Origin: an uncultured Clostridia bacterium
Lineage (GTDB): Bacteria; Bacillota; Clostridia; Christensenellales; Borkfalkiaceae
DNA: 56,742 bases
Reading direction: 5' to 3'
NCBI GenBank assembly: GCA_947630115.1
Contig: CANRGG010000009.1
Span: 1-56,742, forward strand
This document shows, one piece after another, positions 36,098-56,274 of this stretch. The translations under genes were made by a program, and so were the position numbers. How positions within the stretch are numbered: the stretch's first letter is position 1; each line of letters opens with the position of its first letter. The notes under the pieces were generated by a model that worked only from the letters and a program-made list of their open reading frames with translations, was not told where the DNA came from and searched no databases.

Positions 36098-36409
36098 TCA
36101 GGTGGTTTGCAGAATATTTGCGGCGCGAAGGCTTGCAAGAAGCTGGTTCAGCGTCGCAGCGACGGTCTGCGGGGTCGCGCCTCCGGTAGCGTCGGTATTC
36201 TCCACGGCGGCAGCGGGGGTGAAAACGGCGTCGGCGCCGGTTTCGCCGCGGGGAATCGTGAAGTTGAGCACGAGATTATCAGCGGTACCGCCGGTGGTTA
36301 CGGCAGCGGGGCCTTCGGGGCCGGTGGTGGTGACGGTGCCGACGGTGACCGTCGGCGTGACGCCGTCAACGCCTGCGGGGCCGGTGGGCCCGGTGGGACC
36401 TGTAGCGCG
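36098..36409 (-). pseudogene. 3' piece of the split collagen-like (BclA-type) gene
   Basis: Read on the minus strand, the frame opens abruptly as [18 protein letters not shown]. It then leaves the Gly-X-Y repeat and gives the typical clostridial exosporium C-terminal domain: ADNLVLNFTIPRGETGAD, then FTPAAAVENTDATGG, then TVAATLNQLLASLRAANIL and stop. An in-frame TAA and the end of element II lie immediately upstream, so it has no start of its own. It joins in frame to the middle piece at 51011-51093. Confidence 0.88.
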
Positions 36410-36430
36410 TGTGCGTTAAGGGATTTTAAT
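36398..36430 (-). other. attL-like left end of element II
   Basis: Collagen sequence up to about 36405 meets TGTGCGTTAAGGGATTTT (36410-36427). This matches the left end of element I (TGTAACTTATGGGATACT) at 11 of 18 positions. The crossover candidate is TGTG at 36410-36413, repeated at 51011-51014. Confidence 0.65.
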
Positions 36431-39400
36431 TTCCCGTTGTGCCCGCGCTGAGGCTTTGATCAAGTTTTGCTTTCTCCTTGTCGGAGAGGGCGTCTTGAAT
36501 ATACTCGTTGGCGCAAGTGCCGTCGGGCCATTTGACGTTGATGAGAGATTTTTTGAGGGCTTTGATATGGTCTGGTTCGCGGTTCCCGATAACGGGATAC
36601 AAATCCAAGTCGCGATAGACCTTCTGCATATGCCAGAGGATATGATCGGTATTCTTCTCGAGCTTTCCGTCTTTTATCGTCTTGTATTGGCAAAGCACGC
36701 GGATATCGCGTTGATTGGAGAACAAGTTCTGCATATTGCGTGTGTCATAATATTTGCTGTTTTCGCTTTTCTGGCCGCCATCCAAATCGGCGGTTTCTTT
36801 GTAGACCATGACGCTGAACATCCCCAAGAGCTCGATATATTCGAATTTTTTTACATCTTCTTCTGGCGCTGTGGTGTATTCGTTGCCATTCCAATACTTC
36901 GTCGGCTTATTCTTGCCAACGGACGGGAACGCAAACAAAACCATATTGACGAAGCGGCTTTGTGCTTGTTTATAGCCCTCATAGTCGGAATTTTTATTTC
37001 CGAACCATTCCATATATGCGTCAGCCCCACCGTATTGTAGCAACGTATCTGTCGTTAGAAAGCTTTTCGCCATGCTTGCGCCCGCGCCATTTAATAATCC
37101 AACGCCCTCCGCCATCTTTTCAGGATAATAATAGTTGAGAACATCTAAAAATCCCTTAACGTTGACAGTTTGATTGGTTCCTGATTCCAGCGAAATACCT
37201 TTCAAACATTCCGACATGACAACATTTTCAAGGTAACTATTTTGATTGTTTCCATAAAGCTGTAATGCGGCACTTGCCACGCAACGCAAAATGGAATTTT
37301 TTATATAGATTTTCCCGCCACTCGGATTCATTTTGCTGTAATATTGAATATCCGAATAATAGATCCCTTTGATTTTATATAAAAGTTTCGTCGTGGTAGG
37401 ACGGATTTCCGTGGTATCGTTATGTCCTTTCAACTTTACATTATAGATTGTGCCAAAATCTGTCCCATTGCCCGTGTTTTCTAACTTGTTATTTAATTTA
37501 TCGTCGGTAATCTTGTCGTTCAGTACCTTCAAATTGACTTGATAACCGTTACCATAAAGCACTTCTTTGGTGATTTTCGTATCGTTATGTGAAGTCACAT
37601 CCGTCGGCTTCAAAATCAAATTGTCTGGGATAGTTTTCGCCGTGTCTCCGGTGATTTCGCCGTCGCCGTACAAATTATTGTGCAAAACGACCTTTCGATG
37701 GCTGGCGTTGCAATATCCGTCCGCGTCGAATACGTTCACAAGATCTTTCTCTTCCAACACGTTGAAATTAAAATGCGTGTTTACCTCGCTCTCCTTCGCG
37801 CCGTCCCCCGCCTCAACTCTCAAATACGTATAAGCATTTTCCGACGGCTTGAAATCTCTGCCGCTTTTATCATCTTGCGCCTGCGGGACCGCCGTCCAGC
37901 CCTCCTTCTCGCCGAAGTTGCCAAAATAATCGTTCTGAACGTCCGTCTCCGAAAGCCCGCCGAAATCCCCAAAATATATATGCGCATAGCCTGCTTCCGC
38001 AAATACGTCGATCCACGTCACGCGCTTTCCGCTTTCTGCGAATTTTCCGCCCTGCGCAATGACTTTGCCGTCTTTATCTTTCAGCGTGGAACAGTTCTTG
38101 CCGTTTTCAGCGGTGCTTTCTTCGATCGTGTAAATTTCGTCCCCGACGATGACTTTATTCCCCCGCTGCCGCGAAACGGGCGTCTCTACTTTCTTGCCGT
38201 TTTCCGTGACGCGCGTCAAATCCCAGATGATCGCCGCCGGATCGCCGGTTTTGGTGGTGTCCGTGACGTCGGTGAGCGTTTTGATCGGCACGCGGAAATA
38301 ATCGACTTTTTCGTTGTTATAATAGCTCTGCTTTGCGAACACCCGCACCTGCTGATAGCCGAGATAGACGTTGCTCGGGTTGGTGTTGTCGAAGTCCTCC
38401 ATTTCCACGCGCACGAAATCTGCGCAGTTGAAAATCAGCGTGACTTTCTTCTCTCCGCAGGTGAACGTGAACTCTTCGTCGATGAAATAGGTCTTGTCTT
38501 GCGGGATCGTCACCGTGAGTTTCAGCGTGTCCGCACTGACATTATAGCTCCAATCGCTTTGACCGTTATTCATATGCTCGAGCTTGAAGAACTTTTCCAT
38601 CTCCGCCTGCTCGAAGCCGCCGAGATTGTTTTGAAGTTCGGGCTTTTCGATCACGATGTCGAAATGCCCCTGGATCGCCTTCGGGAAAGAGAATTCGAAC
38701 GTTTTGGGCTCTTCTTTTACCTCAAACTGATCGAGCTTAACGACCTTTTCATTCTCGGGATATTCGATGTGATATTTGAGATCAAGAGATTCCAGCTCGA
38801 GCTTTTGGATGTTCAACTTGATCTCCGCCTTGCCGCTCTTGATCGTGACGCTCTTGCGCCCGTCGAGCACGATCGAAAGGTTGCAAACTTTGCCGCCCGT
38901 CAGCGTCTCGTCGTACCACGCGCCGTCGTCGAACGAATAGGAGACCTTCGTGTCGGTGATCGTCTCTTTGTCCTCGCGCCCGACAAACACCGCCAATTTG
39001 AGCGGCGAAAGAAGGGTCGTATATTCTGTGTCTTTATTGAGAACGGTATCGCCGAATTTCACCTCGATCGTGTGTGCGACGACCAGAACTTTGACGGCGA
39101 AGGTATATTCCTGTCCCGCGACGGAAAGAACCGTCGTCTCCGATCCGCCCTCTTTGGCGGTCAGTGTGATCTTTGCCGTGCCATTTTCCAAAAGTTCGAT
39201 CTCAAAATCGAACTTCATCTCGGCGGAAAAGCCGATCGCCTCCTTCGTCAGCGTAAAGTCGGCGGGCGTCGCCGTGTTGGCGTCGACAAGAAGCACGATC
39301 TTGTCGCCGATGTCGCCGAAATCGAGCGCCGTCGTTTCCTTGGGGTTGAGTTCTGCGTCTTGGAGGGTGACCTTCGGGGGCAGAAGAAGGTTGCCGTGGG

Positions 39401-55299: not shown

Positions 55300-55311
55300 G
55301 GAGAGAAAATC

Positions 55312-55776
55312 ATGTTCAAAGAAAACGAATTTAACAAGGACCTTTCATTTGAGTTTCCCGATCGCTGCTCTATGGATTTTACCGCCGAAAATCTTACTTT
55401 CTATATCATAACTTCGGGACCTTTTGACTTTTGGATTGAAATAGAACCCGCAAAGAAAGAAGATTTGTGCGCCGCTATGCTGAAACGGGTTATTGATAAT
55501 GAATATGTCTTGAATACCGAACCGTATGAAATTCACCGTTCGGGATTAAAAGGCATTGCCGCCTTTTACTCCAAGCCCGACAAAAAGCGTGAGTTTTATT
55601 CCGAAAAGTATCGTCTGTTTTTATGCGGACAGCTAATGGATTTTACCGTGTTTGTAGAAAGTTCCGAGATAATCGCCGATGAGATGAATATAGCAAAGCC
55701 GCCTTTGAAAAAGATTTTGCAATACCCTGTGGTTAAAAGATTTTTCGAGAGCATATCTTCATTGGTCGGGAAATAA
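55312..55776 (+). CDS. Hypothetical protein (154 aa)
   Basis: The ATG follows AAGGAGAG, 12 bases after the maturase fragment. It is a soluble alpha/beta protein (FEFPDRCSMDFTAENLTFYI, IHRSGLKGIAAFYSKPDKKR, FLCGQLMDFTVFVESS) with no signal peptide and no motif I can place. It is AT-richer than the host genes. It lies at the right end of element I as possible cargo, with a terminator directly after it. Confidence 0.65.
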   Translation: MFKENEFNKDLSFEFPDRCSMDFTAENLTFYIITSGPFDFWIEIEPAKKEDLCAAMLKRVIDNEYVLNTEPYEIHRSGLKGIAAFYSKPDKKREFYSEKYRLFLCGQLMDFTVFVESSEIIADEMNIAKPPLKKILQYPVVKRFFESISSLVGK

Positions 55777-56274
55777 TTAAATTTTACATACAGAAACAAA
55801 AAAGAGATCACCGAAACTTTCGGTGATCTCTTTCATCATAATTTGCTGCTTTGTCTTTTTGTGTTTCCCATTTGTTACATCACCTGTCGCACCTGTGGGA
55901 CCGATCGGGCCAGCTTCGCCCGTCGCACCCGTGGGGCCAATCGGGCCAGCTTCACCCGTCGGACCGGTGGGGCCTGTCGCACCCGTAAGGCCGATCAAAC
56001 CGATGGGACCGGTCGCACCCGTGGGACCGATCGGGCCGGTCGCGCCGGCAGGTCCCGTTGCGCCGGTAATGCCCGTGGGGCCGGTCGCGCCGGTCGCCCC
56101 CGTTGCACCCGTTGCGCCGGTGGGACCCGTCGCACCGCCCGTGCCAGTCGGCACCGAGAAGGTGGGAACATAGTAAGAGCTCCCGCAGGAATTGCAGCCG
56201 CAAGAATTGCAGGAATTACAGCCGCAGTTACAGTTGCATTGATATAAGACGAGGAAACGTCTTAAAATGGACAT
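55777..56274 (-). CDS. 5' piece of the split collagen-like spore-surface gene, as read into element I
   Basis: The frame has 165 codons. A strong AAAGGAGG precedes the ATG. The first 35 residues are Cys-rich (alternating C-N-C, C-G-C-N-S-C), as in spore coat and exosporium proteins, and suited to cross-linking. From about residue 47 a Gly-X-Thr collagen-like repeat (G-A-T-G-P-T type) runs to residue 130 and ends at the attachment site. The last 34 codons ([11 protein letters not shown] to VSVCKI) belong to element I. The genuine gene continues at 51093 and 36409. Alone it gives a truncated stalk without the trimer-forming C-terminus. Confidence 0.88.
55801..55833. terminator. Terminator inside the right end of element I
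   Basis: A perfect 15-bp stem (AAAGAGATCACCGAA and complement, ACT loop). The better T-run (TTTTTTGTTTC) is on the minus strand, the direction of the interrupted collagen gene. On the plus strand it closes the 154-aa gene. Confidence 0.85.
55862..55890 (-). other. attR-like right end of element I
   Basis: On the minus strand collagen codons GGT-GCG-ACA-GGT are followed by GATGTAACAAATGGGAAACA. TGTAAC and ATGGGA mirror the left end at 51096-51108. The crossover candidate TTGT is at 55872-55875 (plus strand). Confidence 0.75.

Follow-up and report, generated by a model that had tools for sequence, protein, structure and literature searches.

Can a gene whose coding sequence lies in three separated pieces still serve the bacterium that carries it? 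This question is raised by a BclA-like, collagen-type gene of an uncultured Clostridia bacterium, located on a 56,742-nucleotide stretch of DNA (the window) that is one entire contig (C9) of a genome (G000) of 1.61 Mb in 54 contigs, 93.9% complete. The pieces are one gene, an observation that holds and exceeds the preliminary description of this locus, and they are separated by two elements of 4.8 kb (E2) and 14.6 kb (E1). Similarly cut genes with conserved detached ends in relatives suggest, without proving it, that the gene is reassembled at sporulation. From genome sequence we infer, with slightly less than an even chance of being right, that the elements are removed in the mother cell and one BclA-like spore-surface gene is thereby rejoined; the excision, its control, the role of a small partner protein and the location on the spore are all parts of this proposal. 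The best call for the elements is a new recombinase-element family that resides in BclA-type genes and is presumably excised from them. The comparisons below draw on a scan for recombinase relatives over 84,980 species genomes, in which 207 relatives were confirmed and the best 80 of the 207 were made into loci (L numbers; genomes bear G numbers).

One collagen-like gene in three pieces

The coordinates, order and minus-strand placement of the three pieces (Table 1) are as first described. Joining 56274-55872, 51093-51011 and 36409-36098 was recomputed to give 798 bases with 265 codons before the stop. The direct repeats at which these joins had been placed are likewise present (TTGT, or ACAA, and TGTG, or CACA on the minus strand), and the terminator claimed behind the gene appears by eye as a hairpin and T-rich sequence after the stop at 36.1 kb. 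A slip in the Gly-X-Thr register had been noted at each junction; it is seen with this join, which retains one additional codon per junction, and disappears when the join is shortened by 3 nt per junction, which yields 263 codons in unbroken Gly-X-Thr register. A symmetric TA join (spacing 14) agrees with the palindromes of the element ends but is out of frame, the window product stopping after 175 codons, and was rejected.

The anticipated uninterrupted relative was found in G007, where the gene adjoins a homologue of the window's membrane-protein neighbour. Between the window and this intact G007 protein, the leaders agree at 62.5% over 48 aligned positions and the C-terminal ends at 43% over 44; the V-T-R-A-T-G motif expected at the joins is, by contrast, lacking from the uninterrupted genes looked at. 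In another lineage (L107), the leader and the 3′ piece of a split gene match the same intact proteins, P0057 and P0061, at 53-55% and 73-74%, respectively. In G036, a leader gene is broken at the identical GATGDVT position, and in G034 a 3′ piece lies at a contig edge with a right end nearly identical to that of the window. The neighbour gene is present in 24 of 103 genus genomes, and a collagen gene in its 1.5 kb flanks is seen only in the window and G007, as judged with a flank filter that missed the window's own piece and may miss others. A promoter-like block, CACCTC...GGATATGATGATA, lies at 56330-56370 (-) upstream of the 5′ piece; it accompanies the 5′ pieces of several relatives as well as intact orthologues in L034, L035, and L036, and no sigma-factor assignment was reached for it.

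Table 1. Pieces of the split gene, the two elements and their genes, in window coordinates.
Feature	Position	Strand	Basis
5′ piece: Cys-rich leader and Gly-X-Thr repeats	55872..56274	-	Collagen PF01391, E 1.5e-13; leader matches intact G007 protein
Middle piece, 83 bases	51011..51093	-	Sequence reading and join
3′ piece with C-terminal domain, terminator-like hairpin behind	36098..36409	-	Matches C-terminal end of intact G007 protein
Element E2, 4.8 kb	51094..55871	-	Sequence reading, domain scan
Left end (attL-like) of E2, around GATGTAACAAATGGG	55855..55890	-	Same break in relative G036 (L037)
Right end (attR-like) of E2: CCCATAAGTTACAAGAGCAACGGG	51084..51107	-	Sequence reading
Large serine recombinase R2, stop codon at junction	51101..52753	-	Domain scan
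Small conserved ORF directly upstream of R2; candidate directionality factor or partner	52834..53043	-	Relatives in 28/29 elements
TnpV-like protein in E2	53633..54016	-	PF14198, E 2.7e-10
Group II intron maturase-type ORF in E2	54064..55299	+	GIIM PF08388
Element E1, 14.6 kb	36410..51010	-	Sequence reading, domain scan
Left end of E1: ACAGAACCTGTCACAGATGGG	51005..51025	-	Sequence reading
Right end of E1: CCCTTAACGCACACGCGCTACAGG	36399..36422	-	Sequence reading
Large serine recombinase R1, inside E1	44298..45905	-	61% identical to R2
ORF upstream of R1 carrying the same small-protein motif	45909..46277	-	By eye against small-protein alignment

The inserts had been presented as two recombinase elements, and each does encode a serine recombinase, but a recombinase adjoins the junction at 51.1 kb only. 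R2, in E2, combines Resolvase, Recombinase, zinc-ribbon and DUF4368 domains. R1 ends 7.9 kb short of the 36.4 kb junction (intervening region 36410-44297), and the E1 right end is abutted by the stop of a 1692-aa Big_2 protein instead of a recombinase. Besides that protein and the recombinase, E1 carries a sensor kinase, a 5′-nucleotidase-type protein and an ABC transporter. The match of the group II open reading frame (ORF) of E2, 54064-55299, is restricted to the maturase domain, and the ORF is possibly a remnant. Elsewhere in the source genome, a short resolvase-like stretch at the very start of the contig (window 23-298, +) is 32% identical to part of R1, and a more distant recombinase gene (41%) on another contig (L004, G000:C33 82-1617) contains an in-frame TAG.

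Recurrence and divergence of the split genes

Recombinases similar to R2 (E 1e-80 or better) occur in 38 of the 101 genus genomes searched. Classification took in 62 of the 80 loci, the 18 left out lying at 47-50% identity. At 35 of the 62, a collagen piece of the same orientation lies at most 350 nt behind the recombinase; 5 reach a contig edge and 20 were scored by script as having no collagen piece, and L085, scored "none" in this way, is a 3′ piece on reading. All nine classified loci at 50% identity or less are devoid of collagen behind the recombinase. The piece behind the recombinase is a middle piece in L106 and L119, so doubly split genes occur in these two and, on our own reading, in L112, where the middle is a few codons long and no recombinase adjoins the right end of the second element. 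The very short middle pieces of L106 and L112 remain in frame (by eye). The leader type ..TLTGITGPTG is split in L093, L097, L107, and L116, and truncated in L166. Chance as the origin of the split was rejected because the same arrangement recurs in relatives, whose numerous assemblies stem from separate studies and hosts.

The severed 3′ pieces bear the mark of selection: the ratio of non-synonymous to synonymous divergence (dN/dS) of their C-terminal domains is 0.14-0.33 in all nine pairs compared, which overlap and hence are non-independent, and the age of each insertion sets how much of this evolution came after the split. In the trio L095/L115/L128, synonymous divergence (dS) is 1.46, 0.89, and 1.27 for the recombinase and 1.72, 1.14, and 1.18 for the 3′ domain, and short related stretches lie downstream (444 nt at 75% for L095/L115, 233 nt at 78% for L095/L128). 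Similar dS and related flanks are what is expected if the split was shared by descent. The 3′ domain of the trio remains under constraint; with dS close to saturation, this is fair but not final evidence of an old split whose 3′ part is still used.

Element ends, partner protein and sporulation setting

By eye, the left ends follow the consensus ACn GAr CAG GTn ACA TAA GGGAAA and the right ends TCCC ATA TGT TAC CTG CCC ACn GG, and either kind of end resembles a hybrid between palindromic host and element sites. End-pair statistics rest on 16 pairs and the direct-repeat count on 17 (G125 added), L116 being in neither set; the right ends entered for E1 and L112 are not adjacent to their own recombinase (in L112 the end lies 6.6 kb beyond). 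The codon phases of left and right ends are compatible in 16 of the 16 pairs used, phase having been required by one end finder and the other end sets having been taken without that demand. The window pairs share ACAA and CACA, neither of which is conserved over the 16 pairs, and a simple direct-repeat excision core was rejected on that ground. With in-register spacing, 11/16 pairs have GT as the central dinucleotide of the left end and AC as that of the right end, and L111 has the two swapped; AC stands at exactly one end in 15/16 pairs and at both ends in none. Simple matched-core integration would leave an identical dinucleotide at both ends. What the two ends of a pair do have in common is inverted: pair-specific inverted identity is found for the P arms (p 0.0004), for the B arms (p 0.0002) and, at the symmetric in-register spacing, for the central dinucleotide (12/16, p 0.013).

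Ahead of the recombinase, 28 of 29 elements encode a small protein marked by a conserved RHF-G-KD motif; E1, the one missed, has the motif by eye. This protein matches no Pfam or NCBIfam family above cut-off and is a natural candidate directionality factor. Upstream of its ORF, the motif CATAnnnTA, which is the -10 form of mother-cell sigma factors, occurs at 9 of 34 loci, compared with 2.2 in shuffles (highest of 400: 8) and 1/34 in a control stretch. A looser motif, TCATA[AT], is found at 22/34 loci vs. 5.3 in shuffles (control 4/34 vs. 3.4), a count that is only descriptive since the motif was derived from the same sequences. A study of Clostridium difficile reports that the sigma-E and sigma-K consensus elements of that species resemble those of Bacillus subtilis and that bclA1-3 depend on sigma-K (PMC3789822). 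Both sporulation markers searched, Spo0A and SpoIVA, were found in G000 above curated cut-offs.

Upstream of their split 5′ pieces, eight loci have a homologue of one and the same protein; by eye, these homologues resemble a GT2 glycosyltransferase with TPR repeats beside the G036 gene, the sole one scanned. This glycosyltransferase gene (L037 6635-7783) adjoins a split gene and recalls the sgtA-bclA3 pair of C. difficile, in which sgtA reportedly adjoins bclA3. SgtA is reported to have a glycosyltransferase-type role (PMC7157674).

Proposed excision, its rivals and known systems

According to the proposed mechanism, elements built around a large DUF4368-type serine recombinase and its small partner would interrupt one BclA-like gene twice and leave it broken in growing cells. 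In the mother cell, the recombinase, aided by the small protein, would remove the elements and fuse the pieces in frame, limiting production of the collagen protein to the spore. Such developmental excision is the best single reading, although its probability stays just under one half and a targeted mobile element is a serious rival. A number of observations count against it. The main weakness of the excision model lies in its strand exchange. The best direct dinucleotide at any spacing is shared by 7/16 pairs, which does not exceed what mispaired ends give (p = 0.61), and in-frame direct repeats of 4 or more occur in 4 of 17 pairs. The right end of L089 contains, just past the centre, an in-frame TGA that the earlier kind of join would keep, and the constant codon phase could also arise from site choice inside a 9-nt repeat. 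No joined allele was found among the 288 distinct database proteins in the matches listed (best 120, 120, and 56); P0121, the single pattern match to the joined site, was rejected, having no collagen ahead of the match. The search for a 3′ piece in G036 was negative, as was that for a leader in G034, and intact orthologues exist in G006, G007, and G024. At 2 of the 62 classified loci, in G125 and G118 (L088 11590-12080; L121 1400-1600), the element is reversed, so that its recombinase end adjoins the 5′ collagen piece, which lies behind the recombinase in the opposite direction. Even in L095/L115/L128, dS near saturation makes common descent likely rather than proven, and outside this trio recombinase and gene are out of step. 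Recombinase dS is 0.05 in L080/L081 and 0.15 in L084/L086, vs. 1.14 and 0.50 for the host gene; these near-identical recombinases in unlike genes imply that the elements arrived or were exchanged late. Between the window and G036, the recombinase is 94% identical in DNA and the 5′ gene region 74%. Conversely, in L103/L113 and L087/L113, whose flanks are 78% and 75% alike, the 3′ domain has diverged less than the recombinases have, which suggests separate insertions or replacement. Movement, replacement or separate insertion is thus common.

This discordance is what would be expected if TnpX/Ccr-like mobile elements targeted collagen repeats and merely broke the gene, with frequent, mostly recent insertions whose 3′ pieces have not yet decayed, an explanation that is possible at a probability well short of one half. 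The intact orthologues and the missing core are in its favour too, as are a module that is 97-98% identical between G083 and G124 within flanks of 82%, cargo that differs among loci with near-identical recombinases (in the stretches fetched), and TnpV in E2. Purifying selection on the 3′ domains in nine of nine pairs, the co-divergence of recombinase and gene in L095/L115/L128 and the in-frame short middle pieces of L106 and L112 speak against it. A pattern-limited scan of IMG/VR returned only one relative, at 39%, on which a phage origin was rejected, and 392 plasmid records held no relative of 60% or more; both results go against a mobile element. The inverted identity of arms and central dinucleotide, together with the reversed elements of G125 and G118, would suit inversion units, in which the ends are inverted copies of one site between which the recombinase turns the element round. 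Symmetric att sites suffice for arm identity, however, the reversed copies may be separate insertions, the two orientations were met in different species and not within one genome, and flipping neither rejoins the gene nor explains selection on the 3′ piece, so that inversion is improbable. Different paralogues or a misassembly as the source of the pieces, already disfavoured, are scarcely credible: collagen repeats are assembly-prone and the window comes from a draft-genome contig, but the same architecture is met in many assemblies of different hosts and studies, the leader and C-terminal end match one intact protein, and the source genome has a single copy of the 3′ piece. A bolder form of the excision reading is DNA-level splicing, whereby a clade of gut Clostridia would store its collagen genes for the spore surface in the form of two or three DNA exons, in some cases just a few codons long, with the elements removed in the mother cell at symmetric sites without a fixed core, by a strand exchange unlike that of known serine integrases; this is unlikely.

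Should excision be confirmed, developmental gene reassembly, so far a matter of a few genes for regulators and the envelope, would reach a class of spore-surface proteins and would recur in many uncultured gut species; it would also supply a natural collection of recombinases with sites legible in genome data. Should the elements do no more than break the gene, there would still be a recombinase family to explain that inserts into collagen repeats, with severed 3′ parts staying under selection. A literature search of titles and abstract openings found no report of a split collagen gene.

Among known systems, the BclA-type exosporium collagens share the Cys-rich leader, the Gly-X-Thr repeats and a non-collagen C-domain with the split gene; they differ in that Pfam and NCBIfam give no match for the window 3′ piece, the BclA C-domain included, and that the BclA_C match of a relative (L073) is weak, at 21 bits vs. 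a cut-off of 38. The glycosyltransferase-type gene beside split genes of relatives is a likeness to C. difficile sgtA-bclA3. Transposons of the Tn4451/TnpX type also possess a large serine recombinase with DUF4368, and E2 carries a TnpV-like gene; here, in contrast, none of the 11 element proteins scanned matches a mobilization family, the target site consists of collagen repeats, and the small partner ORF belongs to no known family. TnpX-type transposons have a constant dinucleotide common to both ends, whereas at most 7/16 pairs agree here. R2 matches the models of CcrB (E 2e-41) and of XisF of the heterocyst fdxN element (E 3e-34), the latter named in its model as a developmental excision recombinase, and is placed in neither family because its scores, 142 and 119 bits, fall far short of the cut-offs, 900 and 375.

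The known sporulation gene-intervening elements are skin in sigK, SPbeta in spsM, gin in gerE, and yin in yabG. As in these, a recombinase element splits a gene whose pieces restore one frame, in a host with sporulation genes, and both window elements have their own site-specific recombinase, at the end of E2 and internal in E1. On the other hand, the host gene is collagen-like, many species carry elements in this gene class, with up to two per gene, and no phage genes were detected among the 11 window-element proteins scanned with Pfam. The ends lack a conserved shared core, whereas those of gin have a 9 bp consensus (PMC5595907), and excision is here a proposal drawn from genomes. As a kind of system, the split gene and its elements would thus be a variant of the gene-intervening elements, hosted in collagen-like genes.

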